From NCBI GenBank assembly GCA_913060645.1, contig CAJXSW010000015.1:1-38069 (forward strand): a stretch of 38,069 bases of DNA. Reading direction: 5' to 3'. Under the pieces are notes generated by a model. The model was not told where the DNA came from. It saw nothing but the letters and a program-made list of their open reading frames with translations, and searched no databases. Shown here one piece after another: positions 2,300 to 35,876 of the stretch (position 1 is its first letter; each line of letters starts with the position of its first letter). Source of the stretch: an uncultured Dokdonia sp. Its GTDB lineage: Bacteria; Bacteroidota; Bacteroidia; Flavobacteriales; Flavobacteriaceae. Position numbers and translations under genes: made by a program.

Positions 2300-3658
2300 C
2301 TACTTTTCTGCTTTAATACGTTCTTGTTCTAATGCCTCAGCTAGGCGTTTTGCAATTATAGGCTCCAGTAAAGTTTTACGAGGATTAATTTTCACAAAAG
2401 GGTAAATTTCTAACTCACCTTTCATTGCGTCTTTTGGATTAGGATGTTTATTTGTCCCCAAAAGAATCAACTCTCCTTCATCAAACTTAGCCTGTTCCTT
2501 TGCAGCACTTTCTTTTATTTTACGCTGGATAGTTCCTTCTTTAAGTTGTCTCAAAAATCCTCCTTGCGCTTCTATATCTTTATAAAGCGTAAGTGCTTTT
2601 TCAGCCAATTGCGAAGTAAGCTCTTCTACATAATAAGAACCATCTGCAGGGTTTTGAACTACATCAAAATAGCTTTCTTCTTTGAGAACGATGAGCTGGT
2701 TGCGAGAAATGCGCTGTCCAAAATTATTAGTCTTGTGATATAGTGCATCATAAGGCATATTTACCACCCAGTCTGCGCCACCTAGCACAGCACTCATACA
2801 CTCCGTAGTGGTGCGCAGCATGTTTATATTATAATCGTAAATCGTTTTATTGCGTCTTGATGGGTGCGCTATTATGCTAATAGCTGCATCCGTGTAATTA
2901 AATGCAGACAGCACTACCGCAGCAAGCTTTCTGAGCGCTCTTAGCTTTGCAATTTCAAAAAAGTAATTAGTTCCTACTGCAACTTCAAAAGTGACAAGAT
3001 TTATACTAAGCTTCTCTTTCTCACAATGGTTCAAATATTCGGTAAGATGAGCTATGCCGTAAGCTAGTTGCTGTACCATAGTGGCACCAGCATTCTGATA
3101 TAAGGTGGTATCTACAGTAAGTTTACTTTCTTCTCCCTGTAGCAAACTGCTCACTATATCGTGATCCTTTTGCAAGTTGTGATACCAGTTACCATCAAGT
3201 GCAAGATGATTAATGATATCGAGCTTTGTGGTGATATGATACGCTTTCGCGAAAGCGTGAAAACGTTTATAAAAATCTTCATCAAGAAAACTGAGCTCAA
3301 AATAAAGAGGGATTCTTTTATGCTTTAAACTTTCAAATAACAACTCAAGATCAAACAAAGTATCTGCCTGAAAGTAGATAGCCTCTGCTCCGTTCTCTAT
3401 AGCTTTATTTGCGGTTTGCGCCGACTTAGCCGCATCTACTATAAATATTTTCTCTCCTATAAACCATTGTTGTGGAGCTTGAACAGCGACAGTTTCTTTT
3501 ATTTCATCACTGTGATAAAAAGGCTTTACATGTATCCCTTCTAGACTTTGCCAGACAAGCGTCTCATTATAGTCTGCCCCTTTGAGGTCAAACTGTATTT
3601 TTTGCTTGAAAGCCTTTGCCGAAACTGCGTCAAATTCTGAAAATAAATTAGTCTTCAT
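2300..3658 (-). CDS. mutA: Methylmalonyl-CoA mutase small subunit
   Basis: Non-catalytic partner of MutB in heterodimeric methylmalonyl-CoA mutase. The protein resembles the mutase TIM-barrel throughout (for example the stretch containing VAVGTNYFFEIAKLRALR) but is shorter than MutB and diverges at its C-terminus, as small subunits do. I chose the ATG at 3658 (MKTNLFSEFD) over an upstream in-frame start at 3688 that would add ten residues lying inside the ftsB-like gene. With this start the overlap with the ftsB-like gene is 11 bases. About residue 134 the dispersed palindrome at 3242-3257 is read as AFAKA, in a segment between barrel elements. The lipoprotein gene follows after 4 bases. Confidence 0.92.
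   Translation of the reverse strand: MKTNLFSEFDAVSAKAFKQKIQFDLKGADYNETLVWQSLEGIHVKPFYHSDEIKETVAVQAPQQWFIGEKIFIVDAAKSAQTANKAIENGAEAIYFQADTLFDLELLFESLKHKRIPLYFELSFLDEDFYKRFHAFAKAYHITTKLDIINHLALDGNWYHNLQKDHDIVSSLLQGEESKLTVDTTLYQNAGATMVQQLAYGIAHLTEYLNHCEKEKLSINLVTFEVAVGTNYFFEIAKLRALRKLAAVVLSAFNYTDAAISIIAHPSRRNKTIYDYNINMLRTTTECMSAVLGGADWVVNMPYDALYHKTNNFGQRISRNQLIVLKEESYFDVVQNPADGSYYVEELTSQLAEKALTLYKDIEAQGGFLRQLKEGTIQRKIKESAAKEQAKFDEGELILLGTNKHPNPKDAMKGELEIYPFVKINPRKTLLEPIIAKRLAEALEQERIKAEK
3242..3257. repeat. Dispersed palindrome copy 1 (in mutA)
   Basis: Perfect CGCTTTCGCGAAAGCG flanked by A and T, so the symmetry extends to 18 bases. Read in the gene as Ala-Phe-Ala-Lys-Ala. Confidence 0.95.
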
Positions 3659-3980
3659 TCTCTGTAGATAAACTATCTTGATATTCAATTATATAAATCT
3701 CCTCGTTATCCTTTTTCATAAGGTATTCTTCACGAGCAAATCTTTCTAAACCTGCACTATCTTTAAGTTGTAAGATTTGTGCATTATCCTCTGCTATTTC
3801 CTTTTTAAAGTATGCCCTATTACCTTCCAGCTTATCGTATTCTTGATTGAGCTCTCTGTGTAATAAATAAGAACTTCCATCAAAAAACAGCATCCACACT
3901 ATAAAAATGAAAAAAATGAGCAAGTATTTATTGCTCATTATTCTAAACCATTTTTTCTGTTTTAGTTCCTTGATGTTCAT
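3648..3980 (-). CDS. Septum formation initiator, FtsB/DivIC family
   Basis: 110 residues: a short basic cytoplasmic tail, one membrane segment at about residues 19-38 (LLIFFIFIVWMLFF), then a charged coiled-coil region and a short tail containing LERFAREEYLMKKDNEEIYII, typical of FtsB/DivIC proteins. Members sit in the inner membrane and bridge FtsL and FtsQ in the divisome. It lies 21 bases after udk and overlaps mutA by 11 bases, so it probably shares one transcript with metabolic genes. As I recall, this order is common in Flavobacteriaceae. Start Met1 is used; Met15 is a possible alternative just before the membrane segment. Confidence 0.85.
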   Translation of the reverse strand: MNIKELKQKKWFRIMSNKYLLIFFIFIVWMLFFDGSSYLLHRELNQEYDKLEGNRAYFKKEIAEDNAQILQLKDSAGLERFAREEYLMKKDNEEIYIIEYQDSLSTENED

Positions 3981-4001
3981 TGTTGTAAATATAACAAAAC
4001 C

Positions 4002-4610
4002 TTAATGTAATCGTTCGTTTATGATACTACGAACGATATCTACAGCCACTGTATTGTACCTATTATTAGGTATAATGATATCTGCAAACTCCTTTGTAGG
4101 CTCAATGAACTGCTGGTGCATGGGCTTCAGTGTAGTTTGATATCTATTTAACACCTCATCTAGATCACGACCACGCTCTGCAATATCTCTCTTAAGACGG
4201 CGTATTAAACGCTCATCACTATCTGCATGCACAAATACTTTGATATCAAAAAGATTACGAATATTAGGATCTGTCAAAATAAGAATCCCCTCTACCACAA
4301 GCACGTTTGTAGGACTCGTAAGGACGGTCTCATCAATGCGGTTATGTGCAACAAATGAATACATAGGCTGCAAAATATTTCTTCCCTCTTTAAGCTCAAC
4401 AAGATGCTGGCAAAGCAAAGGAAAATCTATTGCGTTAGGGTGATCAAAGTTCACCTTCTTACGATCTTCCATCGATAATGCAGAGAGATCTTTGTAGTAT
4501 GAATCTTGAGAAATTACTGTTACTTGTCCTTCTGGTAGATCTGACACAATCTGATCTACAACGGTAGTCTTACCACTTCCGGTACCACCGCCTATTCCTA
4601 TAATAAGCAT
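4002..4610 (-). CDS. udk: Uridine kinase
   Basis: Phosphorylates uridine and cytidine to UMP and CMP in pyrimidine salvage, in the cytoplasm. 202 residues is the normal length for the family. The P-loop GGGTGSGKTT is at residues 7-16, followed by the family-typical QDSYYKDLS and NFDHPNAID (substrate-binding Asp and His region) and the lid segment RLIRRLKRDIAERGRDLDEV. It is the first gene of the minus-strand run through ftsB, mutA, the lipoprotein and mutB. The 171-base gap upstream holds the hflX terminator, so a promoter probably lies at about 4611-4690, but I cannot point to a convincing box. Confidence 0.96.
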   Translation of the reverse strand: MLIIGIGGGTGSGKTTVVDQIVSDLPEGQVTVISQDSYYKDLSALSMEDRKKVNFDHPNAIDFPLLCQHLVELKEGRNILQPMYSFVAHNRIDETVLTSPTNVLVVEGILILTDPNIRNLFDIKVFVHADSDERLIRRLKRDIAERGRDLDEVLNRYQTTLKPMHQQFIEPTKEFADIIIPNNRYNTVAVDIVRSIINERLH

Positions 4611-4754: not shown

Positions 4755-4781
4755 CTTTTACGCTATTAAGAATAAATAATC

Positions 4782-6080: not shown

Positions 6081-7064
6081 ATGAAGGATGATTCCGCTTT
6101 CGCGAAAGCGCAACAAGAAAAAATACAATGTGCAGTAGGCTTTTACAACCTAGAAAATCTTTTTGACACGACAAACAACCCAGAAACGCTAGATGACGAC
6201 TTTACACCGAACGGTTTTAAGGAGTGGAATAGCTATAAGTTTAATAAGAAAATAGCCAAACTATCTAAAGTCATCTCAAACATAGGAAAGGATGACACTA
6301 AGACCTCACCTTCTCTCCTAGGAGTTGCCGAAGTGGAAAATAGATCCGTATTAGAATCACTTATTGCGACAGACAACCTCAAAGATGAAGGTTATGATAT
6401 TGTTCATTATGACTCTCCAGATGAGCGTGGTATTGACGTAGCTTTATTATACAAAAAAGCAGATTTTAAAGTAACACAGAGTGAGCCCATCACACTCTAC
6501 CTAGAAGCCGATGAAGGTGGCAGAGACTATACTCGTGACATTCTTTATGTTCAAGGAGAACTTTTAGGAAATCCTGTGCACATACTAGTAAATCACTGGC
6601 CTTCCCGAAGATCTGGTGAGAATGAAACCTCACAAAAGCGCATTGCAGCAGCTCAGCGTAATAGGGAAGTTATTGATAAACTCATAAATGAAAATCCTAA
6701 AGTGAAGATTATCATTATGGGCGATTTTAATGACGGGCCACACAGCGAAAGCGTAAAAAACAACCTCGTTAAAACTGAGTTTTATAACCCTATGCTGTAC
6801 TTAGGAACAAGATATGAGGGAAGTTTAAACTATAGATTTGAGTGGTTCATTTTTGATCAGATTATCTTTTCAAACAATTTTGTACAACTACACGAAAACA
6901 CACTTCTTTACGAGAAGTCAGATATTTACAATGACTTTTTCCTCACTGAGTATGATGGTAAATTTAAAGGAACACCCTTCCGCACCTATGCAGGAAAAAG
7001 ATATTTAGGCGGCTATAGCGACCACTTTCCGGTTTATAGCATTCTATCTACAAGACCTGACTAA
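6081..7064 (+). CDS. Endonuclease/exonuclease/phosphatase family protein, no signal peptide
   Basis: 327 residues with the EEP fold motifs in order: FYNLENLFDT near residue 22, GVAEVENR (metal-binding Glu), VNHWPSRRSGE, IIMGDFNDGPH (Asp/Asn pair) and the terminal GGYSDHFPV (catalytic Asp-His). The family cleaves phosphodiester or phosphomonoester bonds using Mg2+; the substrate here cannot be told. It is paralogous to the gene at 11484-12560 and even shares the AFAKAQQ string near the N-terminus, but it lacks the signal peptide: an in-frame TAG at 6066-6068 shuts off any upstream start. So it is cytoplasmic as written, or the export signal was lost. It is convergent with the DUF5689 gene, 9 bases apart. 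Confidence 0.88.
   Translation: MKDDSAFAKAQQEKIQCAVGFYNLENLFDTTNNPETLDDDFTPNGFKEWNSYKFNKKIAKLSKVISNIGKDDTKTSPSLLGVAEVENRSVLESLIATDNLKDEGYDIVHYDSPDERGIDVALLYKKADFKVTQSEPITLYLEADEGGRDYTRDILYVQGELLGNPVHILVNHWPSRRSGENETSQKRIAAAQRNREVIDKLINENPKVKIIIMGDFNDGPHSESVKNNLVKTEFYNPMLYLGTRYEGSLNYRFEWFIFDQIIFSNNFVQLHENTLLYEKSDIYNDFFLTEYDGKFKGTPFRTYAGKRYLGGYSDHFPVYSILSTRPD
6095..6110. repeat. Dispersed palindrome copy 2 (in first EEP gene)
   Basis: Perfect CGCTTTCGCGAAAGCG, read as AFAKA at residues 6-10. The six bases that follow (CAACAA) also match those after copy 3, so this copy lies at a homologous place in two paralogues. Confidence 0.95.
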
Positions 7065-11483: not shown

Positions 11484-12560
11484 ATGCTTTCAATAAAATT
11501 AAAAACCAAGAGATTATTATTACTTGTGATATCGTTTTGTCTCTACGCTTTCGCGAAAGCGCAACAAACCAATAATTATAGAGCCTACACTATCGCATTT
11601 TATAACGTAGAAAATCTGTTTGACACCATCAATGACCCTATCACTTATGATGATGATCGCACTCCTGAAGGTAAGGATCATTGGACCGAAAAGATATATC
11701 AAGACAAGGTGAGCAACATTGCCCGAGTAATTGCCGATATAGGCGCAGACTTCACAAAAAACAGCCCAGCGATTATAGGACTAGCAGAAATCGAAAACAG
11801 AAAAACTGTAGAAGCACTAGCGAATGACCCACAATTACTGCCGAAAGATTACGGTATCGTACATTACGATTCTCCAGACAGGAGAGGTATAGACGTAGCG
11901 CTGTTGTATCAAAAGAGGCTATTTAAGCCATTATCTACTAGCAAGCATGAGTTACTCATTTACGAGATTGATAATCCATCAAAACGTAAGTTTACAAGGG
12001 ATCAGCTTCTTGTATCTGGCTTACTAGATGGTGATATGATACATATCATTGTAAACCACTGGCCGTCTAGATCTGGCGGAGAAGCAAAGAGCAGGAAAAA
12101 GCGTATGGACGCAGCTTCACTGACTAAAAAAATCACAGACAGTTTACAAAGCAATGACCCTTATGCAAAGATTATTATCATGGGAGACCTCAATGATGAC
12201 CCTACAAATGCTAGTGTGAAAAAAGTGTTACAAACACAACACAAGATTAAAAAATTAAGAGACAAGGAACTTTATAACCCAATGGAATCCATGTTTAAAA
12301 AAGGAATAGGAACCCTTGCATATCGCGATGGGTGGAACCTCTTTGACCAGATAATTATAAGTGCGCCATTACTAGATGATGACTACACCTCTTTCAGATA
12401 TTATAAAGCCGGCATTTACAACAAAAGCTACTTGAGCAACCCAAAGGGTCGTTATAAAGGATATCCTTACAGAAGTTTTGCAAATGGAGGATATACAGGC
12501 GGCTATAGTGACCACTTCCCAGTATATATTTATTTGATTAAGAAAGAACTCTCTGATTAA
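11484..12560 (+). CDS. Secreted endonuclease/exonuclease/phosphatase family protein
   Basis: About 358 residues. The signal peptide (KTKRLLLLVISFCLY) is followed by AFAKA, giving an AKA|QQ signal-peptidase-I-like site at residue 26. The EEP motifs follow: FYNVENLFDT, GLAEIENR, VNHWPSRSGGE, IIMGDLNDDP and GGYSDHFPV. It is a Mg2+-dependent phosphoesterase or nuclease acting in the periplasm or outside the cell. Start 11484 is preferred over 11445 because the earlier one adds 13 residues ahead of a normal signal peptide and would leave no leader after the TACATTTG box. It is paralogous to the gene at 6081 and divergent from the TonB receptor. The palindrome supplies the cleavage-site residues. 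Confidence 0.9.
   Translation: MLSIKLKTKRLLLLVISFCLYAFAKAQQTNNYRAYTIAFYNVENLFDTINDPITYDDDRTPEGKDHWTEKIYQDKVSNIARVIADIGADFTKNSPAIIGLAEIENRKTVEALANDPQLLPKDYGIVHYDSPDRRGIDVALLYQKRLFKPLSTSKHELLIYEIDNPSKRKFTRDQLLVSGLLDGDMIHIIVNHWPSRSGGEAKSRKKRMDAASLTKKITDSLQSNDPYAKIIIMGDLNDDPTNASVKKVLQTQHKIKKLRDKELYNPMESMFKKGIGTLAYRDGWNLFDQIIISAPLLDDDYTSFRYYKAGIYNKSYLSNPKGRYKGYPYRSFANGGYTGGYSDHFPVYIYLIKKELSD
11546..11561. repeat. Dispersed palindrome copy 3 (in secreted EEP gene)
   Basis: Perfect CGCTTTCGCGAAAGCG, read as AFAKA at residues 22-26 and forming the signal peptidase site of the gene starting at 11484. Confidence 0.95.
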
Positions 12561-12621: not shown

Positions 12622-12637
12622 CGCTTTCGCAAAAGCG
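12622..12637. repeat. Degenerate dispersed palindrome copy
   Basis: CGCTTTCGCAAAAGCG differs from the consensus at one central base (G to A), with the flanking A and T kept. It lies intergenically, just after the terminator. Confidence 0.85.
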
Positions 12638-16699: not shown

Positions 16700-18313
16700 C
16701 TACACTTCTTTATAGAATTTCATTAAATTCTTAGTAGAACCATCATGATTTTCACTTGTTCCAGTACTAAACTCATTAAGCACTTTTTTTGCAAGTTGTT
16801 TTCCTAGTTCAACTCCCCATTGATCATAAGAGTATATATTCCATATCACTCCTTGTACAAAGATTTTATGCTCATACATAGCTACCAGTGACCCTAAGCT
16901 CTCTGGAGTGAGATTCTCCCCTAAAATAGTCGTTGTAGGCTTATTTCCCTCAAACACTTTAAAGGGTATGAGTTCTTCTATACGCTTTCGCGAAAGCGTA
17001 CTTCCCTCAAAATCCTGCTCCACTTGAGATACAGTCTTACCATTCATGAGTGCTTCAGTTTGTGCAAAGAAGTTTGCCATAAGCTTATCATGGTGATCTT
17101 GATTACCGTGAAGTGACTTTTTGAAACCAATAAAATCTGCAGGAATTAATTTTGTTCCTTGGTGTATCAATTGGAAAAATGCGTGTTGTGAGTTTGTTCC
17201 AGGTTCACCCCAAATAATATTTCCAGTTTCATAAGTAACGCGGTCACCCTTGCGATCTACGCTTTTCCCGTTACTTTCCATAATTGCTTGCTGCAAGTAT
17301 GCTGGAAGTCTATGTAAATATTGGGAATAAGGAATAACAGCTTCTGTCTCTGCTCCATAAAAATTATTATACCACACACTTAAGAGTGCCGTAATCACTG
17401 GAATATTTTGATCAAATGACGTGTTTTTAAAATGCTCATCCATTTTAAATGCACCATGGAATAAGCCTTCAAAGTTTTTATAACCCACAGCAAGCGCTAT
17501 AGATAAACCTACTGAGCTCCAAAGAGAAAAGCGTCCTCCTACCCAGTTCCACATAGGAAATACGTTATCTGAAGAAATACCAAAGCTAGCAATAGCCTCC
17601 TCATTTGTTGACACTGCAACAAAATGGTTACTCACCGCTTCTTCTCCTAGTTGATTTACAAACCACTTTCTTACTGTTGTGGCATTACTCAACGTCTCTT
17701 GAGTTGTAAACGTCTTAGATACTATTACAAAAAGCGTTGTTTCTGGATTAAGATTTTTAATGGTCTCCATTACATGATCACCATCTACATTTGATATAAA
17801 ATGCGTAGTCAAGTGGTTTTTGTAATACTGCAATGCCTCAACAACCATCACTGGCCCAAGATCTGACCCACCTATACCTATGTTTACAACGTCTGTAATC
17901 TCTTTACCGGTAGCTCCTTTATGCTTGCCAGAAATAACTTTTTCAGTAAAAATTTCGATTGACTTTTTTACTTCATTCACCTCTTCCTTAGCAAAAGCGT
18001 CACTCTTTTCATCACGCAGCGCGGTATGCATCACTGCTCTATCTTCAGTAGCATTTATTGCATCCCCACCAAAATAGCTATCAATTGCCTCTTTTAAGCC
18101 AACCTCTTCTGCCAGTTGCACGAGTAACTCACGAGTTTTTGTTGTGATTCTATTTTTACTGTAATCTACATATAAAGAATCCCAAATGATTGTGAACTCT
18201 TCTGCACGAGCGCTATCCTTAAAAAGATCAACTAATAGCGTATCTTTTGTTTCCTTGTAATGCGTTTCTAATGCTTTCCAAGCTGCCGTTGTAGTTGGGT
18301 TTATACTTTTCAT
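16700..18313 (-). CDS. pgi: Glucose-6-phosphate isomerase
   Basis: Interconverts glucose-6-phosphate and fructose-6-phosphate in glycolysis and gluconeogenesis. 537 residues matches the long bacterial/eukaryotic form. Family motifs visible: DVVNIGIGGSDLGPVM near residue 142, VSKTFTTQET, and the signature GEPGTNSQHAFFQLIHQGT, with a C-terminal stretch WGVELGKQLAKKVL holding the conserved Lys. The dispersed palindrome at 16983-16998 is read as TLSRKR near residue 439, in EGSTLSRKRIEEL. It is the last gene of a minus-strand run behind kynA and the M23 gene (18-base gap) and is closed by a terminator. Confidence 0.97.
   Translation of the reverse strand: MKSINPTTTAAWKALETHYKETKDTLLVDLFKDSARAEEFTIIWDSLYVDYSKNRITTKTRELLVQLAEEVGLKEAIDSYFGGDAINATEDRAVMHTALRDEKSDAFAKEEVNEVKKSIEIFTEKVISGKHKGATGKEITDVVNIGIGGSDLGPVMVVEALQYYKNHLTTHFISNVDGDHVMETIKNLNPETTLFVIVSKTFTTQETLSNATTVRKWFVNQLGEEAVSNHFVAVSTNEEAIASFGISSDNVFPMWNWVGGRFSLWSSVGLSIALAVGYKNFEGLFHGAFKMDEHFKNTSFDQNIPVITALLSVWYNNFYGAETEAVIPYSQYLHRLPAYLQQAIMESNGKSVDRKGDRVTYETGNIIWGEPGTNSQHAFFQLIHQGTKLIPADFIGFKKSLHGNQDHHDKLMANFFAQTEALMNGKTVSQVEQDFEGSTLSRKRIEELIPFKVFEGNKPTTTILGENLTPESLGSLVAMYEHKIFVQGVIWNIYSYDQWGVELGKQLAKKVLNEFSTGTSENHDGSTKNLMKFYKEV
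16983..16998. repeat. Dispersed palindrome copy 4 (in pgi)
   Basis: Perfect core with TA on both sides, so the symmetry spans 20 bases. Read in a second frame as T-L-S-R-K-R. The next bases CTT are shared with the copies at 21633 and 25209. Confidence 0.95.
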
Positions 18314-18331: not shown

Positions 18332-19639
18332 TTATTGTTGTTTTTCTTCTGTTTGCTGTTGTGCAAATTCCATTTCTGCTTCACTCATAAATGGAATATT
18401 ATCTAATTGCAATCTGAGAGGCTTACGTATACTATCGTAAATAGGCTTGAGTCGCTCATCTAGCGGTTTTGATGCTGGCAGGTCCTCTTTAAAGGGATCT
18501 ACTTGTTTTCCATTTTTCCAAAAACGATAACACACGTGAGGTCCACCAGAATTTCCTGTCATCCCTATAGTTCCTATTACATCTCCTTGACGCACAGATT
18601 GCCCTACTTTTACAGCTCTTTTTTGCATGTGTAGGTATTGCGTATCATAAGTAGCATTATGGCGTATTTTTACATAATTACCATTACCTCCACGTCGTTC
18701 AGATTTAGTCACCACTCCATCTGCAGTAGCAAGAATAGGAGTACCTATAGCTCCAGCAAAGTCTGTTCCCTTATGTGGACGCAACTTATAACCATAGTAC
18801 TTTATACGTCGCTTAAGATTATATCTAGATGAGATTCTATTGAACTTAAGTGGACCTTTTAAGAATGCACGACGTAGGTTGTCACCATTTTCATCAAAGT
18901 AGTCAAAACCTCCAGCTAGTGAGTCATTTGCAAATCTAAATGCATAAATCTCACGTCCTGCATGTTCAAAAAGAACAGCTTTAATTTTACCTACTCCCGC
19001 AGGAATTGTATCATTTACAAAGCGTTCCTCATAAATTGCCTTGAAGCGGTCACCTTTTTGAAGTTTAAAGAAATCAATAGTCCACGCATAAATATCTGCC
19101 ATTTTATAAGCAACATTCACACTTACTCCAAGATCATCAAAAGTAGAAGATAGATTGCTGTTTATTACTCCAGAGATTTCACGCTCATAAGTTGTTGTAG
19201 GATGCTTTCTTGCCGCAGCTTTTACATTTTCTTGAAAATCTACCACGACGTAGTCTTCTCTATTTTGCTCATAAATAAACACTTGAGCTGCCTCTAGAGA
19301 ATCTTTTGATTTAAGTAAGACATATGGCTTTCCTTTTCTAATTTTCCGAGTATCAAACACCGACACAACAGAGTCAGAAATCTCTTCTATAGTTGCATAA
19401 TCTACATTTGCATCAAAAAGAATTTTTCCAAAACTATCTCCAGACTGCACAGTATCTCGCTCTACAATATAATCATCAAGCACGTAACCGTACTCTTTAA
19501 CTACTTCTGGTGGCGCCGTATAAATTTCTTCATCATCTACCGTATCTGAGGTAGCGTCACCGCAAGCAAAAACTAAAAAACTAAAAAAAACTAAAAGATA
19601 TAGGTGGTTATATTTCACAAAAAGTAAGTTGTCATTCAT
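18332..19639 (-). CDS. M23-family peptidase lipoprotein (cell-wall endopeptidase-like)
   Basis: 435 residues. A signal with lipobox VFAC places the lipid-modified Cys at 26. An N-terminal region with VQSGDSFGKIL (residues 64-74) looks LysM-like/OapA-like. The C-terminal LytM domain contains HKGTDF (Zn ligands H289, D293), YLHM (H337) and PHVCYRF (H368, C370). Typical M23 enzymes have HxH there, with the second His binding Zn; here it is Cys. Family members cut peptidoglycan cross-links or, when degenerate, activate amidases. I believe the HVC variant is shared by other Bacteroidetes homologues but cannot check. The start ATG overlaps the kynA stop by one base, so the genes are coupled. Confidence 0.88.
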   Translation of the reverse strand: MNDNLLFVKYNHLYLLVFFSFLVFACGDATSDTVDDEEIYTAPPEVVKEYGYVLDDYIVERDTVQSGDSFGKILFDANVDYATIEEISDSVVSVFDTRKIRKGKPYVLLKSKDSLEAAQVFIYEQNREDYVVVDFQENVKAAARKHPTTTYEREISGVINSNLSSTFDDLGVSVNVAYKMADIYAWTIDFFKLQKGDRFKAIYEERFVNDTIPAGVGKIKAVLFEHAGREIYAFRFANDSLAGGFDYFDENGDNLRRAFLKGPLKFNRISSRYNLKRRIKYYGYKLRPHKGTDFAGAIGTPILATADGVVTKSERRGGNGNYVKIRHNATYDTQYLHMQKRAVKVGQSVRQGDVIGTIGMTGNSGGPHVCYRFWKNGKQVDPFKEDLPASKPLDERLKPIYDSIRKPLRLQLDNIPFMSEAEMEFAQQQTEEKQQ

Positions 19640-20577
19640 TATACATCATGCCCCCAGTTTGCAAGCTCTTCTGCAGTCCAGACTTCTGGAAAGAAAATAC
19701 GTCGCTGGTATTTAGGGTGCATATATTTTGTCCATTCGCTTCCGCCTGTTGCCTCTACTACTTTCTCACCATTATTTAAGTAGTGATTTGCAGCATGATA
19801 ATGAGACATTACCCAAGTAACATTTACTGTGTAATCGTAGTGACGCATAGCATCACGTAACTTTTGATTCTCACGGACTTCTTGAGGTAAACTTTTAAAG
19901 CGAGCATACAAATTTATAGTATTATATTCTTTTGTAAACGCTACAAAGTCGTTTTTATACTTCTCTTCAAAGGCTGTGAGCAAATAAGATTTTTTACCAG
20001 TATGATAATCCTTGCCGGCGGCTTGCCAATATAGATGTTCTAACGCATGTTCGTACGGAGTATTGCGGTCTATGCTTTCGCGAAAGCGATTATCTATAAG
20101 ATTTATTAAATCTGTACTTGCAAACTCAATTTTTCTATACTGCGCACTTTGAAAACCACTAGCTGGAGTAAGGGTTTTTCTAAATTTCATGTACTGCTCG
20201 ACATCCATTCCTTCTTGCATAATCGAGAAAGAACTGGTAAGCATATCAAAATACCTACTTATGCGCCCTAAACGAGAACTAAAAAAATCTACTGTAAGAT
20301 TAGGATGGTGAGCTACTTGCTCAATCTCCCAAAGTACCATTTTAAATAGCAGCTCATTAACTTGATGGTACATGATAAACACATTTTCATCTGGCATGCT
20401 CGTGCGTGGCAACTGCAAACTTAATAATGCGTCTGTATGGATGTAGTCCCAGTAAGTGATAGGCTTACTTTGCAGTAATCCTTCAAGATGGTCATCAAGA
20501 TCTTGATCTATCTTCTCATACTTATCATCAAGCTGATTGATGATTTTTTCTATGTCTGGTTGAATGGGCTTTTTCAT
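19639..20577 (-). CDS. kynA: Tryptophan 2,3-dioxygenase
   Basis: Haem enzyme that opens the indole ring of L-tryptophan to N-formylkynurenine, the first step of the kynurenine pathway. 312 residues. Recognisable segments: ITYWDYIHTDALLSLQ, FIMYHQVNELLFKMVLWE (substrate-side His/Glu helix), SGFQSAQYRKIEF and WVMSHYHAANHYL near residue 259, which carries the likely proximal haem His. The palindrome at 20073-20088 is read in a third frame as RFRES at residues 164-168. No other kynurenine-pathway gene is in the window; the downstream genes are a cell-wall peptidase and pgi. A 10-base perfect inverted repeat sits 30 bases upstream of the start. Confidence 0.93.
   Translation of the reverse strand: MKKPIQPDIEKIINQLDDKYEKIDQDLDDHLEGLLQSKPITYWDYIHTDALLSLQLPRTSMPDENVFIMYHQVNELLFKMVLWEIEQVAHHPNLTVDFFSSRLGRISRYFDMLTSSFSIMQEGMDVEQYMKFRKTLTPASGFQSAQYRKIEFASTDLINLIDNRFRESIDRNTPYEHALEHLYWQAAGKDYHTGKKSYLLTAFEEKYKNDFVAFTKEYNTINLYARFKSLPQEVRENQKLRDAMRHYDYTVNVTWVMSHYHAANHYLNNGEKVVEATGGSEWTKYMHPKYQRRIFFPEVWTAEELANWGHDV
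20073..20088. repeat. Dispersed palindrome copy 5 (in kynA)
   Basis: TGCTTTCGCGAAAGCG: the first base is T instead of C, and the 14-base core is intact. Read in a third frame as R-F-R-E-S. Confidence 0.92.
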
Positions 20578-21596: not shown

Positions 21597-21632
21597 AGTT
21601 AAATAATTGTAATTGTGTAAATAACAGCGTTA

Positions 21633-21648
21633 CGCTTTCGCGAAAGCG
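21633..21648. repeat. Dispersed palindrome copy 6 (intergenic, after hppD)
   Basis: Perfect core with TA on both sides (20-base symmetry), 12 bases past the hppD stop and before its terminator. Confidence 0.95.
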
Positions 21649-21659
21649 TACTTAAGAAG

Positions 21660-22820
21660 TTATAAAGTTCCTCTCTGTGCCTGCTCTCTTTCTATGGACT
21701 CAAAAAGTGCCTTAAAGTTTCCTGCACCAAATCCTTTTGCTCCCATACGTTGTATGATTTCAAAAAATAGGGTTGGTCTGTCTTCTAATGGTTTTGTGAA
21801 TATCTGAAGTAAATATCCATCCTCATCTGCATCTACAAGGATAGAAAGCTCTTGTAAACGTTCTATATCCTCCTTCATCACTTTCATATGCTCACCCAGT
21901 CTTTGTGGGATATCATCATAATATGTTTGTGGTGGTGGTGGTAAAAACTCGATACCACGAGCCTTAAGCTGCGCTACTGTTTTAATAATATCATCTGTTG
22001 CAAGAGCGAGGTGCTGTACACCAGATCCTTCATAAAAATCGAGATATTCTTCTATTTGAGATTTCTTTGCTGCCTCTGCTGGTTCATTTATCGGGAATTT
22101 AATACGACCGTTCCCGTTACTCATCACCTTACTCATAAGTGCCGAGTATTCTGTGTGAATTTGCTTATCATCAAAAGACAAGAAATTTACAAACCCCATC
22201 ACCTCTTCATAAAATTTCACCCAAGTATTCATCTGGTTCCAGCCCACATTACCTACCATATGATCTACATATTTTAAACCTGTAGGCTCTGGATTATAAT
22301 CTGATTCCCATTTTCTAAAACCTGGCAAAAACGCTCCTTTGTAGTTTTTACGTTCTACAAACATGTGTACAGTTTCCCCGTAGGTATAAATACCAGCGCG
22401 TACTGTCTCACCATGTTCATCACTCTCTACAAATGGCTCGCAATATGATTTTGCTCCACGTTTTGTAGTTTCCTCATAAGCACTTCTTGCATCTTCTACC
22501 CATAAAGCAACCACCTTTACACCGTCACCATGCTTTACAATGTGATCGTTTATAGGCGACTTACTGTTAAGCGGTGTAGTAAGTACAATACGTATTTTAT
22601 CTTGCTTAAGCACATAACTTACCTCATCACGAGATCCAGTCTCAAGGCCTTTATAAGCATATGATTGAAAACCAAATGCCGTTTTATAAAAGTGTGCTGC
22701 TTGTTTTGCATTACCCACATAAAACTCCACATAGTCTGTCCCTAGAAGCGGAAGAAAATCCTGCGCTCCTTCAAATATTTTTTCTAATCCGTAGTCTACA
22801 GATTTTAAGTCTTTGCTCAT
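21660..22820 (-). CDS. hppD: 4-Hydroxyphenylpyruvate dioxygenase
   Basis: Fe(II) enzyme converting 4-hydroxyphenylpyruvate to homogentisate, the second step of tyrosine breakdown. 386 residues with two vicinal-oxygen-chelate domains. The likely iron ligands are H187 (YVDHMVGNV), H270 (GVQHLALATDDI) and E354 (FFEIIQRMGAKGFGAGNF), all intact. The downstream enzyme, homogentisate dioxygenase, is encoded on the same strand at 23422, separated by a small membrane-protein gene. The 119-base gap upstream holds the palindrome at 22921 and a short TCTGC/GCAGA repeat; I found no convincing promoter box. Confidence 0.96.
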   Translation of the reverse strand: MSKDLKSVDYGLEKIFEGAQDFLPLLGTDYVEFYVGNAKQAAHFYKTAFGFQSYAYKGLETGSRDEVSYVLKQDKIRIVLTTPLNSKSPINDHIVKHGDGVKVVALWVEDARSAYEETTKRGAKSYCEPFVESDEHGETVRAGIYTYGETVHMFVERKNYKGAFLPGFRKWESDYNPEPTGLKYVDHMVGNVGWNQMNTWVKFYEEVMGFVNFLSFDDKQIHTEYSALMSKVMSNGNGRIKFPINEPAEAAKKSQIEEYLDFYEGSGVQHLALATDDIIKTVAQLKARGIEFLPPPPQTYYDDIPQRLGEHMKVMKEDIERLQELSILVDADEDGYLLQIFTKPLEDRPTLFFEIIQRMGAKGFGAGNFKALFESIEREQAQRGTL

Positions 22821-22920: not shown

Positions 22921-22936
22921 CGCTTTCGCGAAAGCG
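22921..22936. repeat. Dispersed palindrome copy 7 (intergenic, after CCC-motif gene)
   Basis: Perfect CGCTTTCGCGAAAGCG, preceded by TA, ending four bases past the stop of the CCC-motif gene. Confidence 0.95.
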
Positions 22937-24745: not shown

Positions 24746-25993
24746 TTAGAAAGTTCTATCTGGATGAAACATAGCCATATCCATACAAGGTGTTACCTCA
24801 TCTACAATTTCTTGAACTAACTTCCCTGTGCTAGGTCCTAACGTCCATCCCATCATCGCATGACCCGTAGCGATAGTGAGATTTTTACATTTTGAGCTTT
24901 TACCTATATATGGCATTCCATCTGCAGATACTGGTCGCAAGCCACAGGCAGCACCAGCTTTTTCTTCTGCTGTAATATGCACTTCTGGAAAATACTTATT
25001 GACACCATCTGCAATAGAGTCTACTCGAGCCTTATTTATTGTATGATTGATTCCAGCGATCTCCATCGTTCCCGCAAAACGGGTAAATCCATTCATTGGA
25101 GTTATTGCCACTTTTGCTTCTGCAAGTATAGATGGATAGGTAATTCCTGTTTCTTTGGTGGTTTGGACACGATATCCTTTTCCAGCCTGAAGGAGTAGGT
25201 TGATGTTTAGCTTTCGCGAAAGCGTACTTGTCCAACTTCCAGCTGCCATCACAACCTCATCTGTTTTAAGAACTTCTTTATCCGTCTTTACACTGGTGAT
25301 TTTACCATTATTAATCTCTAAATCAATCACTTTCTCCTCTTGTCGAATGACAACACCTTTTGATAAAAGATGCGCTTTCATTTCTGCCATGAATTCGCCA
25401 GGAGTGCTGTGATGATCACACTCAAAATACGAGGCGCCCACGATATCAAGCGTAGCATCTGGCATCATCCTCTTAACATCTTGCGCAGTAATGACTCTTG
25501 CACTTAGCCCTTCTTTTATTGCAATTTGTACAAGTTGGTCCTCGTGATGAAGTGTTGCTTCTGTCTGGCAAAGCATAAGCAAACCTTTTTTTTCTAAGTG
25601 AAAAGAAAATCCTTCTTCTTGCTTGATCTGATGATATAAATCTCGGCCCAGCACCGCAATTTCTTTCATTACGGGAACAGCGCTATTTACATGCTTCTGA
25701 GTACACGACCTATTAAAAGCTAGCGACCATTTTAAGAAATCTGTATCAAGACGTGGCTTAATATACAGCGGACTCTTTTTATTAAACATCCACTTTATCC
25801 CTTGCCTCATGACTCCGGGAGCTGCCAGTGGCACGAGATGACTAGGAGACATATATCCAGCATTTACATAACTCGCGCCGCCATCCATTTTAGATTGATC
25901 TATTACCATGACTTGATGCCCAGACTTTTGTAGAAAATAGGCACAACTTAATCCTATAATCCCTCCACCTATGATGATAACTTCTTTTGCCAT
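24746..25993 (-). CDS. FAD-dependent D-amino acid oxidoreductase (cis-4-hydroxy-D-proline oxidase/dehydrogenase)
   Basis: DadA-like flavoprotein of about 415 residues. Rossmann FAD motif EVIIIGGGIIGLSCAYFLQ at residues 4-22, and a C-terminal FAD-contact segment CGLRPVSADGMPYIG. In hydroxyproline catabolism this family oxidises cis-4-hydroxy-D-proline to 1-pyrroline-4-hydroxy-2-carboxylate; the neighbouring epimerase, deaminase and ketoglutarate-semialdehyde dehydrogenase genes make that role likely. I chose the ATG at 25993 (MAKEVIIIGGG) over a TTG at 26011. It follows the epimerase gene by 20 bases and is the last gene of the operon. The palindrome at 25209 is read as TLSRKL near residue 256. 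Confidence 0.88.
   Translation of the reverse strand: MAKEVIIIGGGIIGLSCAYFLQKSGHQVMVIDQSKMDGGASYVNAGYMSPSHLVPLAAPGVMRQGIKWMFNKKSPLYIKPRLDTDFLKWSLAFNRSCTQKHVNSAVPVMKEIAVLGRDLYHQIKQEEGFSFHLEKKGLLMLCQTEATLHHEDQLVQIAIKEGLSARVITAQDVKRMMPDATLDIVGASYFECDHHSTPGEFMAEMKAHLLSKGVVIRQEEKVIDLEINNGKITSVKTDKEVLKTDEVVMAAGSWTSTLSRKLNINLLLQAGKGYRVQTTKETGITYPSILAEAKVAITPMNGFTRFAGTMEIAGINHTINKARVDSIADGVNKYFPEVHITAEEKAGAACGLRPVSADGMPYIGKSSKCKNLTIATGHAMMGWTLGPSTGKLVQEIVDEVTPCMDMAMFHPDRTF
25209..25224. repeat. Dispersed palindrome copy 8 (in D-amino acid oxidoreductase gene)
   Basis: AGCTTTCGCGAAAGCG followed by TACTT: the first base is changed and the 14-base core is intact. Read as L-S-R-K. Confidence 0.92.
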
Positions 25994-27030: not shown

Positions 27031-28743
27031 CTAACTATTTTTCTCAATCCAGTGTTTCACTCGTCTATCAAGTATAGCGAGTGTCACCGTTCCCTGCTCT
27101 AAGATTATCTCATGAAACTCTCTAATGTCAAACTTAGCACCTAGCTCCTTTTCTGCTAGTGTTCTCAGTTCTCTTATTTTGAGCTCGCCCATTTTATAAG
27201 CAAGTGCTTGTCCCGGCCATGAGATATATCTATCGGTCTCCGTATTAATTTCATGTATGGAAAGCGCTGTGTTTTCAGACATATAATCTACCACTTGCTC
27301 CCTTGTCCAGCCTTTTGCGTGTAATCCTGTATCTACTACAACTCTGCAAGCACGCCACATTTCATAAGTCAATTGTCCAAAACGCTCATACGGTGTTGTA
27401 TACATCCCCATTTCGGCAGCGAGGTATTCGCAGTACAATCCCCATCCCTCACCGTATGCATTTACATACATGTTTTTTCTAAATGTTGGGATGCTATCGC
27501 CCAGCTCTTGATTAAGCGATCCTTGTAAGTGATGCCCAGGCACCGCTTCATGCACCGTAAGTGATGGCAGCACATACACCGGGCGACTAGGCAAATCGTA
27601 GGTGTTTACCCAGTAGTATCCAGGATTTGTACTTCCCTTTGCACTACCTACATATCGCCCTGTCGTGTATTTAGGAGCAATAGCATCTGGTACTGGCGCC
27701 ACTCCGTAAGGCTTACGAGGCAAGGTCTTAAAAAATCGAGATAACTGTGCATCTGCTCTTTTTGCCATGTCACGAGCAATCATAAGCAGTTGCTCTGGAG
27801 AGTTGGCATAAAACTGCTTATCTGTGCGCAAAAATTGTAAAAAGTCTGCAAAAGACCCATCGAAGTTTACTTCCTCAATAATTTTCTGCATTTCGGCTTT
27901 AATGCGGGCAACTTCAGCGAGTCCTTTATTATGCACCTCATCTGCGGTGATATCTAGGGTGGTGTAATAGTTTATTCTGTTTTGATAATATGCTTTTCCA
28001 TTTGGTGTTTCTGAAACTCCAAGTGTCGTGCGCGTTTTAGGGAGATATTCTGTTTCAAAGAATGTTTTTACACGCTCAAAAGATGGAACAACCTGTTGTT
28101 CTATTGCGCTTCTAGCAGCTACCAATAGCGAATCTTTTTGCGCGCCCGATATTGAACTTGGTAAGTTTAAGAATGGCTCGTAGTAGAAGCTGTCTTTATA
28201 ATCGGCTACAATTTGTGAATCATACGTACTCTCATATCCATTAAATATTACGCGCGGCTGCGAGACACCTTTTTCTACTCCTTCTCTCAATAATGGCAAA
28301 TATTGATCTACTACGTCTGGTAACGCTTTCAGCTTATTGAGGTATGAAACCGCTTGCTTATACGTACTTATGGGACGCACCATATAATTCCAACTACTGT
28401 GGAAACCCGAGTCTGATAACAGCGGGTTCAGATAACTTTCGTATGCATAGTAATCTACCGTTTCTTGATGCTTGAACTTGAGTAACTCTAGAGATATACG
28501 CTCTGTCTCAGACAAAGTTGATGGTGAAATGACCTGTAGTTTTTTAAGTTGCGCTTTCGCGAAAGCGGACTCCTTTTCAAACCGTTCTTTTGAAAACACA
28601 CCCATGGGATGCTCATCTGCCAAATCATCTTGCCACTTGAACTCCTGACTATCTTCTATAATTTTCGCAAGCTGCGCCGAAGAATTCTGAGCGCAAACAT
28701 TTATAGAAATACAGAAAACGAGCAGTATAATTATATGCTTCAT
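27031..28743 (-). CDS. Exported DUF885-family metallopeptidase
   Basis: 570 residues. A signal peptide (MKHIIILLVFCISINVCAQ) is followed by a long helical DUF885 body. The zinc motif HEAVPGHHLQ starts at residue 398 (HExxxGHH form, with Glu as catalytic base), followed by an Asn/Glu-rich helix and YGEGWGLYCE. Characterised DUF885 relatives are metal-dependent di- or oligopeptidases. Inside a hydroxyproline operon the parsimonious idea is that it releases hydroxyproline from short peptides in the periplasm; that is inference. The palindrome at 28552 is read as AFAKA at residues 60-64. It is tightly linked to the dehydrogenase gene (6 bases) and the epimerase gene (12 bases). Confidence 0.88.
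   Translation of the reverse strand: MKHIIILLVFCISINVCAQNSSAQLAKIIEDSQEFKWQDDLADEHPMGVFSKERFEKESAFAKAQLKKLQVISPSTLSETERISLELLKFKHQETVDYYAYESYLNPLLSDSGFHSSWNYMVRPISTYKQAVSYLNKLKALPDVVDQYLPLLREGVEKGVSQPRVIFNGYESTYDSQIVADYKDSFYYEPFLNLPSSISGAQKDSLLVAARSAIEQQVVPSFERVKTFFETEYLPKTRTTLGVSETPNGKAYYQNRINYYTTLDITADEVHNKGLAEVARIKAEMQKIIEEVNFDGSFADFLQFLRTDKQFYANSPEQLLMIARDMAKRADAQLSRFFKTLPRKPYGVAPVPDAIAPKYTTGRYVGSAKGSTNPGYYWVNTYDLPSRPVYVLPSLTVHEAVPGHHLQGSLNQELGDSIPTFRKNMYVNAYGEGWGLYCEYLAAEMGMYTTPYERFGQLTYEMWRACRVVVDTGLHAKGWTREQVVDYMSENTALSIHEINTETDRYISWPGQALAYKMGELKIRELRTLAEKELGAKFDIREFHEIILEQGTVTLAILDRRVKHWIEKNS
28552..28567. repeat. Dispersed palindrome copy 9 (in DUF885 peptidase gene)
   Basis: Perfect CGCTTTCGCGAAAGCG, read as AFAKA in KESAFAKAQLKK. 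Confidence 0.95.
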
Positions 28744-31556: not shown

Positions 31557-32390
31557 ATGCGTGTACTTCCTTTTAAAATTCCGAAGCCCAGCAATGCTGC
31601 TATTCTATTTCAAGTAGATCAAGGTGTATTATACAATGCACTCCATCATCATGAGGAAATCCAAATAAGCTACATTAAGAAAGGAACGGGAACTCTAGTG
31701 GCAGGAGATACTGTTCATTCATTTTCGGCTGGAGAGGTAATTGTTTTAGGTAGCTTTCAGCCCCATGTATTTAATAGTGACACCGCAGATTGCTTGATGT
31801 ATTCTGTGTTCTTTAGTGCAGCATCTTTTGGCGATACGTTTTTACAACTAGAAGAAGGAAAAGGTATTGCTGATTTTAACGCTTTCGCGAAAGCGGGATT
31901 TAAAACATCCAAAACTCCTGAAATTGACTCTTTGTTCCAACATATAAACACGGCTCAAGGAATGCATAGACTAGGGCATTTTATAGACCTAATTACTGTC
32001 TTGAAAATCAAGAAAAGCATCTCGCTCTCGACGTTTATCTATGAACGTCATATTTCTGAAAAAGATGGAAAACGCATGAGTGTAATCTTTGACTTTACAC
32101 TAGCAAACTACAAGCAAGAGGTGCATTTAAATGATCTCGCATCACTAACATCTATGACGCCTCATAGCTTTTGCAAGTACTTTAAACAGCGCACAAACAA
32201 GTCATATTTTAGTTTTCTTACTGAAGTTCGCATTGCACATGCCTGCTCCTTACTAGAAGTTCAACAAGAAATTTCTATAGCAGATGTTGCAGATCGCTGC
32301 GGTTATAAGACCTTATCGCATTTTAATAAAAATTTTAAGAAATTGATGAAAATCACTCCAAGCGCCTATAGAGATAAGGATAGGACGTAA
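31557..32390 (+). CDS. AraC-family transcriptional regulator of the hydroxyproline operon
   Basis: 277 residues: an N-terminal cupin-like sensor domain (HHHEEIQISYIKKGTGTLVAGD to FQPHVFNSD, residues 31-76) and a C-terminal double helix-turn-helix (about 173-275: VHLNDLASLTSMTPHSFCKYF and ISIADVADRCGYKTLSHFNKNFKKLMKITPSAYR). It is divergent from the six-gene operon, so it is the probable activator; the ligand may be hydroxyproline or a pathway intermediate. The palindrome at 31880 is read as AFAKA at residues 109-113 in the linker between domains. A TACCTTTA box lies only three bases before the ATG, hinting at a nearly leaderless message. Regulator identity is firm; the target is inferred. Confidence 0.9.
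   Translation: MRVLPFKIPKPSNAAILFQVDQGVLYNALHHHEEIQISYIKKGTGTLVAGDTVHSFSAGEVIVLGSFQPHVFNSDTADCLMYSVFFSAASFGDTFLQLEEGKGIADFNAFAKAGFKTSKTPEIDSLFQHINTAQGMHRLGHFIDLITVLKIKKSISLSTFIYERHISEKDGKRMSVIFDFTLANYKQEVHLNDLASLTSMTPHSFCKYFKQRTNKSYFSFLTEVRIAHACSLLEVQQEISIADVADRCGYKTLSHFNKNFKKLMKITPSAYRDKDRT
31880..31895. repeat. Dispersed palindrome copy 10 (in AraC-type regulator gene)
   Basis: Perfect CGCTTTCGCGAAAGCG, read as AFAKA in DFNAFAKAGFKT. Confidence 0.95.
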
Positions 32391-34454: not shown

Positions 34455-34458
34455 TAGC

Positions 34459-34878
34459 ATGCAACCACTAAGAGAGATATTACTTATAGATGATTCTGAG
34501 TCTGATAATTTTGTACACTCACGAGTAATCAAGAAGGCTAAGGTTACCGCTAGAGTAACCATAAAGTATTCTGGAGAAGAAGGACTTAACTACCTTAAAA
34601 CTCTTATTGATGAAGATTACCCACGTCCTGATCTTATTTTCTTAGACATTAATATGCCTGGCATGGACGGCTTCGAATTTTTAGAGCACTATGAAGAATT
34701 AGAAGATGTGCAAAAAGCAGGAGTGGTGATTGCTATGCTTACGACCTCTACATCTCCGGTAGATAAAAAGAAGGCCGAAAAGTATGACCTATTGCAGCAT
34801 TTTGACAACAAACCGCTTACTCAAGAAAATCTTTTCAAAATTCTAAAAGAGCAATTCCCTGGACGTTTTGACGATTAA
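34459..34878 (+). CDS. Single-domain response regulator
   Basis: 139 residues, a receiver domain only: D11-D12, phosphoacceptor D63 (IFLDINMPGMDG), T95/T96 (AMLTTST) and K118 (FDNKPL). The form resembles Rcp1/CheY-like partners of HDLQEPLR kinases. It lies 4 bases after the kinase gene. It has no output domain, so the signal must pass by protein contact or phosphorelay. The 3' end overlaps the convergent membrane-hydrolase gene by 4 bases, leaving no room for a dedicated terminator. Confidence 0.92.
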   Translation: MQPLREILLIDDSESDNFVHSRVIKKAKVTARVTIKYSGEEGLNYLKTLIDEDYPRPDLIFLDINMPGMDGFEFLEHYEELEDVQKAGVVIAMLTTSTSPVDKKKAEKYDLLQHFDNKPLTQENLFKILKEQFPGRFDD

Positions 34879-35876
34879 TTCCCTTTAATTCTCGTCCATA
34901 GATTACCCAAGACGGCATTCATATTTGAAGGGTCAGGACGATCCTCTGTGGCGGTGATAGTACCACTATTTTCCTCTAGCTTGTATCTAAAAACAAACTG
35001 AGGATTATCTGGATCTATAGCGATAAGTCCAAAACGGAGATCATTATAGATCCACTCATCTTGAATTTTCTCAAGAATATACCAACCTTCAGAAATAGTT
35101 ATAAGCCGTTGTACTTCTGACCTATTAATAAGCGCTTCACTTTCTGAGCGCTTTTTGGGATACGCCTTAAAACTAATTGGCTTGGAATCAAAGAAAGAGT
35201 AATCACCTATAAGATAATCTTCACCTGCATCTACATTTATATTCCACAATACGGTGTTCATTGGGGCTGGACGCGTTGAGATTTGGGTATATGTTATGCC
35301 CTGCTGTTCAAGATTTTCAACCACCTTTTGATGGGCTACATATTTTATCACAACTGTGAGTAATAAATATGCAGTACTCATGTAAATGCCAAGGTTATTA
35401 GTACGCTTTCGCGAAAGCGAACCACGTTTTTTAGTAGCTGCTATAAGGACACATATTAAGAAAGGAACAGTGTATAATGGATCTATAACAAAGACGCTAT
35501 TAAAAGCAACTCTCCAATTAAATGGCCAAAATATTTGCGTTCCCCATGTAGTAAATGCATCTAGCAATGGATGTGTAAAAAGACCCCAGAAAAATAGCTT
35601 TGACCATCCTTTCCAGCCTACATCTGGTCGCTTTTTAAGCTGATGGACAAGCCATCCAAGAAATGGAGCTGCGAGTATAGAAAACACGATACTGTGGCTA
35701 AAACCACGGTGCATCTCGGTCGCTGTGATAGTATCTGTGAGATATCTCCACACAATATCAAGATCTGGTATGGTACCCGCTACCGCTCCCCAGATCATTG
35801 CTCTATTACCTATCTTTTTGCCAAGTACTGCCTCGCCTACTGCGGCGCCAAGAACTATCTGAGTTAAACTATCCAT
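34875..35876 (-). CDS. YdjM-like inner-membrane metal-dependent hydrolase (DUF457)
   Basis: 333 residues. The N-terminus has the family hallmarks MDSLTQIVLGAAVGEAVLG, GTIPDLDI, MHRGFSHSIVFS and FTHPLLDAFTTWGTQIF, with conserved Asp/His that probably bind metal, set among four or five membrane segments. The C-terminal 150 residues are soluble. Homologues are called LexA-regulated or metal-dependent hydrolases, but the reaction is not known to me. The palindrome at 35404 is read as SLSRKR near residue 153, in the loop KKRGSLSRKRTNN between membrane segments. It lies 19 bases after the MutS-like gene. Confidence 0.87.
   Translation of the reverse strand: MDSLTQIVLGAAVGEAVLGKKIGNRAMIWGAVAGTIPDLDIVWRYLTDTITATEMHRGFSHSIVFSILAAPFLGWLVHQLKKRPDVGWKGWSKLFFWGLFTHPLLDAFTTWGTQIFWPFNWRVAFNSVFVIDPLYTVPFLICVLIAATKKRGSLSRKRTNNLGIYMSTAYLLLTVVIKYVAHQKVVENLEQQGITYTQISTRPAPMNTVLWNINVDAGEDYLIGDYSFFDSKPISFKAYPKKRSESEALINRSEVQRLITISEGWYILEKIQDEWIYNDLRFGLIAIDPDNPQFVFRYKLEENSGTITATEDRPDPSNMNAVLGNLWTRIKGN
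35404..35419. repeat. Dispersed palindrome copy 11 (in YdjM-like gene)
   Basis: Perfect CGCTTTCGCGAAAGCG preceded by TA, read as S-L-S-R-K-R. Confidence 0.95.

Follow-up and report, generated by a model that had tools for sequence, protein, structure and literature searches.

The DNA analysed here, called the window throughout, is the whole 38,069-nt stretch of contig CAJXSW010000015.1 (positions 1 to 38,069; assembly GCA_913060645.1) from an uncultured Dokdonia sp. of the Flavobacteriaceae, and its genes are interspersed with copies of one palindrome, GCTTTCGCGAAAGC (Table 1; genes of the window and of the Dokdonia genome G206 were predicted with our own script). We found 11 exact copies of this 14-mer and one one-base variant, GCTTTCGCAAAAGC. 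When the window was shuffled 100 times with its dinucleotides preserved, the mean number of matches at up to two mismatches was 0.09 and the maximum 2, and 12 were never reached. A preliminary description of this DNA had pointed to an iterated palindrome across the whole window, which these counts confirm; the start positions it gave are right for a 16-mer form, while the 14-mer starts one base later. The full 16-mer was present in 9 of the 11 exact copies (the exceptions being those at 20074 and 25210), and the extension of the best copies to a 20-base palindrome, also described before, is perfect in two of the 11 (16984 and 21634). Nine exact copies lie within genes and two between genes. 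No window gene holds two copies, as had been noted, but this does not hold as a rule, since the phosphoglucose isomerase gene of G206 has two. Window positions 31-49 and 38023-38041, with the bases from there toward the contig ends, are untrimmed Illumina Nextera adapter; the contig ends of the window are thus not genomic.

Table 1. Copies of the palindrome in the 38,069-nt window and their surroundings.
Feature	Coordinates	Context
Exact copy	3243..3256	within methylmalonyl-CoA mutase small-subunit-like gene 2300..3658 (-)
Exact copy	6096..6109	close to start of gene 6081..7064 (+), AFAKA frame
Exact copy	11547..11560	end of putative signal peptide (AFAKAQ), gene 11484..12560 (+); kept in G206, L036, G679
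One-base variant GCTTTCGCAAAAGC	12623..12636	intergenic
Exact copy	16984..16997	phosphoglucose isomerase gene 16700..18313 (-); codes LSRK, variable loop; kept in G206, L036
Exact copy	20074..20087	tryptophan 2,3-dioxygenase-like gene 19639..20577 (-), RFRES; kept in G206, G190; L036 one base off
Exact copy, perfect 20-mer	21634..21647	intergenic
Exact copy	22922..22935	intergenic
Exact copy	25210..25223	FAD-dependent oxidoreductase (DAO family) gene 24746..25993 (-)
Exact copy	28553..28566	close to start of DUF885 gene 27031..28605 (-), AFAKA frame
Exact copy	31881..31894	AraC-family regulator gene 31557..32390 (+)
Exact copy	35405..35418	YdjM-family gene 34875..35876 (-)
Example of full element extent	21604..21677	palindrome plus arms of ~20-30 bp; C-poor 5' and G-poor 3', a statistical feature that differs from copy to copy

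In the genome to which the window belongs (3.11 Mb in 219 contigs, 89% complete), the exact 14-mer occurred 705 times, about once per 4.4 kb, and a reversed control pattern not once; the count is therefore neither near expectation nor confined to the window. All 18 Dokdonia genomes were copy-rich, with 369 to 905 copies each (the two lowest values came from genomes that are 78% and 85% complete), which bears out the suspicion of a genome-wide iteration. Such over-representation throughout the genomes of one lineage is characteristic of an uptake sequence. Copy number did not scale with genome size: genomes of 5.5 Mb held 903 and 740 copies, and genomes of 3.3 Mb held 905, 899, and 794. Among 299 Flavobacteriaceae genomes from 236 genera, 61 had at least one copy and five had 408 to 857, the next highest number being 19, and these five copy-rich genomes fell in three genera, Dokdonia and two labeled g11 and g191. 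Across 395 Bacteroidota genomes, the genome of the window alone was rich and the rest had 0 to 6 copies. Among the best 80 named loci listed around phosphoglucose isomerase (most of ~21 kb), the Dokdonia locus alone showed exact copies. The papers listed in our literature searches included no description of this palindrome.

The copies were spaced more evenly than random placement would give. For Dokdonia, gaps were measured on those contigs of G679, G206, and the genome of the window that were covered, and yielded coefficients of variation (CVs) of 0.74 (99 gaps), 0.66 (89 gaps), and 0.44 (57 gaps), respectively. Gaps below 1 kb numbered 4 of 99, 2 of 89, and 0 of 57, where uniform placement predicted 22.8, 17.7, and 12.9. 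The weakest case was G679, whose CV barely exceeded the smallest value among 5000 simulations. G242, a genome of g11, had no gap below 1 kb among 87 (17.3 by chance; CV 0.45, shortest gap 1268 bp), and G190 gave a CV of 0.64 for 13 sites in one 100-kb stretch. One-base variants kept their distance as well: 5% in G206 and none in G242 or G679 lay within 600 bp of an exact copy, compared with 21-32% of random points. Copies of GCTTTCGCGAAAGC repel each other at short range and, like uptake sequences, are more even than random over coding and non-coding DNA. An exception is a pair only 222 bp apart (G076 C3 94528/94750 and G287 C4 16492/16714), which is conserved in both species. Over the replichores of G679 the copies were uniform, and the depletion toward the terminus (inferred from GC skew) that marks Noc/SlmA-type sites was not seen there, with densities of 5.26 versus 5.88 per 20 kb (p = 0.41).

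The main unit is the whole palindrome, because its inner and half sequences, when counted outside full copies against Markov expectation in three genera, were near expectation or little above it. The sequence TTTCGCGAAA occurred 54 times versus 54.3 expected in Dokdonia, 10 versus 10.0 in g11, and, slightly above expectation, 48 versus 39.4 in G190. For the central hexamer TCGCGA the numbers were 144 versus 124.5, 38 versus 37.8, and 210 versus 174 (1.0-1.2 times expectation), and for the half site GCGAAAGC they were 45 versus 29, 7 versus 4.8, and 52 versus 36 (1.4-1.6 times). Some 7- to 8-mers reached 1.6-2.8 times expectation at small counts, a pattern that decayed copies would give.

In G206, 400 kb contained 90 exact copies, 19 with one mismatch, and 26 with two, versus 0, 0, and 0-2 in Markov sequence. 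Predicted genes held 54 of the 90, and 36 were intergenic, in the 10% of the DNA that is non-coding; the genes flanking the latter were in tandem for 27, divergent for 6, and convergent for 3. An AFAKA reading was encoded by 32 of the 54 coding copies. As a separate observation, among 11 AFAKA-frame copies located close to where a protein begins, 5 coincide with the end of a putative signal peptide, a place at which their sequence would be suitable for cleavage (window position 11547 and the G206 C1 genes at 164326, 258933, 349402, and 351942). The window genes at 6081-7064 and 11484-12560, which matched the same G206 gene, form one family with a copy near the start of each. In phosphoglucose isomerase, the Dokdonia residues LSRK occupy a loop that is variable among relatives and contains no insertion; judged against those relatives, this copy arose by substitution, the single origin that we traced.

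By comparison of related sequences, many copies are retained between species, far above a background of 1.6-3.6%. The coding copies of the window were kept in four of four cases in G206 and in three of four at a named Dokdonia locus (L036), while the background for identical 14-mers was 1.6-2.1%; as two window genes match one G206 gene and one L036 gene, the figures for distinct target genes are 3/3 and 2/3. Against a background of 3.0-3.6%, three of six G206 sites and one of three window sites were kept in G679; of four sites in a stretch of G206 C12, the window also had three. A comparison of G206 with loci of the window's own genome (L001-L015; 3/3 kept) was excluded, as these loci had been chosen for their sites. 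Between genera, G190 had one of three window sites and none of three G206 sites (one of them at an alignment edge), and the reverse direction gave 0/4. The dioxygenase match in G242/G010, located in a homologue with 44% identity, may be convergent.

The palindrome is accompanied by arms of skewed composition. The 20 bases 3' of it are G-poor and A/C-rich, which by symmetry is true on each strand, and with arms of ~20-30 bp the element measures 50-70 bp. At arm positions 4-10, the share of G in G206, G679, and G242 is down to ~5%, with a recovery that takes 30-60 bases; for these genomes the A+C excess corresponds to z = 15.4, 24.1, and 17.3, respectively. The G fraction was 0.098 on the sense strand within genes, 0.064 on the antisense strand, and 0.052 between genes, and one-base variants share the arm composition. 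No T enrichment was found in the arms, and 40 inspected flanks had no sequence in common. Covariation of the two sides beyond the core gave no consistent signal at 321 Dokdonia, 111 g11, and 54 G190 sites: the side-to-side match slightly exceeded permuted values at two positions (Dokdonia position 2, p = 0.035; G190 position 7, p = 0.022) and was below them at several others, e.g., position 5 in Dokdonia and position 9 in g11. This lack of consistent covariation favors a symmetric protein with independently acting halves over a folded hairpin. A single-strand hairpin was rejected; when five window copies were folded as DNA, their z-scores ranged from -1.98 to 0.07. For GCGAAAGC, reported to form an unusually stable mini-hairpin, the folding program gave no structure, and this hairpin was not used. 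As a strand-specific feature over 20-30 nt, the arms suggest a single-strand step or strand tracking.

In copy-poor genera, part of the copies was located in islands. A cluster in G087 adjoins genes for an AcrB-type efflux pump, an outer membrane efflux protein, a multicopper oxidase, and RteC, and a pair of copies 933 bp apart in G087 recurs in G101, G078, G215, G160, G076, and G287. The stretch at L132 3499-8465 is a metal-efflux-like island with RteC that is common to several Flavobacteriaceae genera and brings the palindrome into copy-poor genomes. In G076, all 16 exact copies and 9 of 10 with one mismatch lay within a single stretch of ~78 kb, a ratio of one-mismatch to exact copies of 9:16, where copy-rich genomes have 0.08-0.21. 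This island looks like DNA from a donor that uses the palindrome; in its present host, which would not maintain the palindrome, it seems to be in decay.

Some phages carry the element, too. A core-only scan of virus contigs gave at least 120 stretches, the 80 among the matches listed having mostly single copies and many lacking arms, and a scan for core plus arms gave 24. Eighteen virus records, chosen from the two scans and counted whole, had 1-8 copies each including one-mismatch ones; several are related, with the same distances between sites. The richest held seven exact copies and one with one mismatch in 37.4 kb, nearly the host density. Of 20 proteins from these virus contigs, 14 matched a PHROG family, including a Mu-type transposase and its partner (L191 and L222), a terminase and a portal (L168), a head maturation protease (L190), and an integrase (L182). 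Arm G was still 0.11 for 16 virus copies that failed the arm pattern. Phage contigs with the palindrome in IMG/VR were L182, L186, L190, L191, L199, L210, L222, and L168.

Among candidate factors, ParB-domain proteins, RecC, and C5 and N6/N4 methylases did not track the copies. Searching five copy-rich genomes for ParB-domain genes, we obtained one match in G206, G010, G242, and G190, with a second in G000 only. RecC was found in none of 26 genomes, in a test that covered RecC and not AddAB. Of the two methylase families searched, 5 of 11 copy-rich genomes lacked PF00145 (C5) and 7 of the 11 lacked PF01555. The preliminary description had considered a methylase site centered on TCGCGA and a site for dimeric nucleoid proteins (Noc, SlmA). 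The former was not supported, given these absences and the near-Markov hexamer counts; the latter found no backing in a common extra ParB or in terminus depletion, although SlmA-type proteins were not searched. In these tests, the methylase center, extra ParB, terminus depletion, and RecC found no support. Among unusually similar genes common to the three genera (in sampled parts of the genomes), the top matches look like ordinary conserved genes.

For comparison, we applied the same measures to known systems. Haemophilus phages HP1 and HP2 have 17 copies each of the uptake core AAGTGCGGT, versus 0.2 expected from base composition, the expectation used here because a high-order Markov figure (16.2), computed without masking the uptake core, is uninformative; the gap CVs were 0.52 and 0.56. 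Chi occurred 65 times in a 300-kb part of E. coli K-12, once every 4.7 kb, the same density as the palindrome. Its gaps were not even (CV 1.33; 11 below 1 kb versus 11.9 expected), and its flanks in this stretch had no skew.

We see about an even chance that the palindrome forms the center of a self-DNA tag akin to a Haemophilus or Neisseria uptake sequence, kept by biased import and recombination. This reading, an analogy, builds on the abundance and evenness of the copies, the arms, the whole-palindrome unit, the substitution origin in one gene, the retention between species, the carriage by some phages and islands, and the distribution over genera; to these it adds a binding protein, preferential import, and a role for the arms. 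A twofold symmetric protein on the DNA-import route would bind the 14- to 16-bp palindrome in duplex DNA, and tagged fragments would enter preferentially, turn single-stranded, and be integrated into the chromosome by recombination. On each strand the arms are A/C-rich 3' and G/T-rich 5' of the palindrome; this polarity would favor a step that is strand-specific once the protein is bound, for example one-strand entry or RecA loading. Tagged alleles would then replace untagged ones, and tags would accumulate where protein or intergenic sequence tolerates them. Since a fragment would gain nothing from a further tag, neighbors within ~1 kb would not be kept, and spacing would settle near 4-5 kb. 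Drive is suggested over site-by-site selection because hundreds of sites occur in three separate genera, mostly at different positions where this could be tested, and because of the lack of genome-size scaling, the short-range repulsion, and the presence on phages and islands. For uptake sequences, a relatively even genomic distribution is expected from molecular drive, as stated in PMC7811141. ComEC was present in eight of eight copy-rich genomes. According to PMC8459023, Riemerella, another member of the Flavobacteriaceae, is naturally transformable and for this requires ComEC, DprA, ComF, RecA, and a further four proteins of unknown function.

Several points weigh against a self-DNA tag. 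ComEC was found equally in copy-poor genomes (19 of 20), and it therefore does not explain the distribution; DNA import may be possible in the host, but ComEC is not specific to the genomes rich in copies. The spacing in the richest phage record was not significantly even (CV 0.61, P = 0.12, seven gaps), and the remaining phage records have just 1-3 copies each. The arms are weaker in G190 (z = 6.8), which has 45% GC over the 100-kb stretch analyzed. No G/C strand skew was seen in HP1 and HP2 beside the 28 distinct copies of the uptake core, so the analogy leaves the arms unexplained, and we know of no uptake sequence that is palindromic. A structural function would likewise keep copies at the same positions for long, and carriage by phages and islands fits several intracellular functions.

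A wider formulation, which we put forward only tentatively, is a DNA-processing element of a new kind. Here, a symmetric protein bound to the palindrome would initiate a reaction with strand polarity that proceeds outward in each arm (unwinding, cutting, or growth of a filament with a preference for a G-poor strand over 20-30 nt), so that one signal serves both directions. It could act in self-DNA import or in recombination and reside on resident phages and conjugative islands as well, and the three genera would share it via one transferred factor, with sites then accumulating largely independently.

An architectural or segregation site is rather unlikely in our view. A dimeric nucleoid protein would bind each copy and anchor or bridge loops of ~4 kb, possibly spreading along the arms, in line with a symmetric unit whose sides vary independently outside the core, with the even and replichore-uniform spacing, and with the occurrence in all 18 Dokdonia genomes. 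However, each of hundreds of sites would confer a tiny benefit, their number does not follow genome size, phages have copies too, no extra ParB-domain protein is common to the five genomes tested, and strand-asymmetric arms are not expected for duplex binding. We consider it unlikely, too, that the palindrome is a bidirectional recombination or repair site, a symmetric counterpart of Chi at which a bound protein would halt resection and pass a G/T-rich 3' tail to RecA. The G/T-rich composition 5' of the site on each strand, the Chi-like density, and the presence in phages and islands speak for it, as does a preference of RecA for a TGG-repeat sequence resembling Chi, reported in PMC3763553. 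On the other side, E. coli Chi is uneven and lacks such arms, RecC is absent from the genomes tested (AddAB being outside that test), and half of the palindrome does not suffice: the small excess of GCGAAAGC outside full copies argues against a one-sided signal.

The remaining explanations fare worse. That the sequence is HIP1-like, made or kept by a DNA methyltransferase together with repair, is very improbable: usual methylase sites are shorter than 14 bp, the inner TCGCGA is near expectation outside full sites, and both methylase families searched are missing from several copy-rich genomes. In its favor is the likeness to a GC-rich palindrome spread genome-wide in cyanobacteria (PMC4390886). 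A transcription signal, be it terminator, promoter, or regulator site, would suit those copies that are intergenic, but we hold it to be highly improbable and rejected regulator and terminator on position: most copies lie anywhere within genes, with arms similar on sense and antisense strands and devoid of T enrichment, and 27 of the 36 intergenic ones lie between tandem genes. Spread by insertion, as a repetitive extragenic palindrome, a bacterial interspersed mosaic element (REP/BIME), or a transposon remnant, is barely credible. It would account for the high copy number and the intergenic enrichment, but it is contradicted in the one traced gene by substitution without an insertion or deletion, and it fits neither the 54 of 90 sites in genes nor the even spacing nor the 40 dissimilar flanks. 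REP/BIME was accordingly discarded, in agreement with the preliminary statement that this is not a simple mobile element.

To our knowledge, sequence-specific DNA uptake tags are established in few lineages only. If the palindrome is indeed a self-DNA tag, it would be an independent case, palindromic and strand-polar, in marine Bacteroidota that bears on the question of drive versus function, and it would provide a means of testing how marine flavobacteria exchange genes. It may also mark DNA origin, pointing to the hosts of uncultured phages and revealing islands in other genera that came from tag-using donors. Separately, we noted other repeats in two of the genomes: 12-mers of the GAAACTAAGAAA type in G010 C1 (L116-L120; 21 per 100 kb) and of the CATTGATCACTA/AGTGATCAATGC type in G190 C1 (L126-L130; 13 per 100 kb).

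Among known systems, sites for Noc, SlmA, and ParB are palindromes of similar length that are read by dimers; the present element differs from them in its hundreds of replichore-uniform copies without a common extra ParB-domain protein. With Chi it shares the density and possibly a RecA-friendly adjoining strand, but Chi, an oriented single-strand octamer read by RecBCD or AddAB, is non-palindromic, uneven, and without skewed flanks, and RecC was absent from the genomes tested here. HIP1 (GCGATCGC), a GC-rich palindrome repeated genome-wide in cyanobacteria about once per 1000 nt (PMC4390886), is similarly iterated, but GCTTTCGCGAAAGC is longer and sparser, belongs to Flavobacteriaceae, has an inner hexamer that is not enriched alone, and lacks a universal methylase among PF00145 and PF01555. 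The likeness to uptake sequences raised in the preliminary description is supported: hundreds of copies, evenness, coding and non-coding location, and carriage by phages (HP1 and HP2) are shared with the uptake signal sequences (USS) and DNA uptake sequences (DUS) of Pasteurellaceae and Neisseriaceae. The palindrome is about four times sparser than the ~1-kb average spacing given for Haemophilus in PMC7811141, and 2.3 times sparser than the uptake core in HP1. It also differs in its perfect symmetry, its 14- to 16-bp core, its polar arms, and its Bacteroidota host. Taken together with the HP1/HP2 and Chi controls, the evenness and the presence on phages agree with an uptake sequence, the spacing is unlike that of Chi, and the arms match neither; even if the element is a self-DNA tag, its palindromic form and polar arms would be new.

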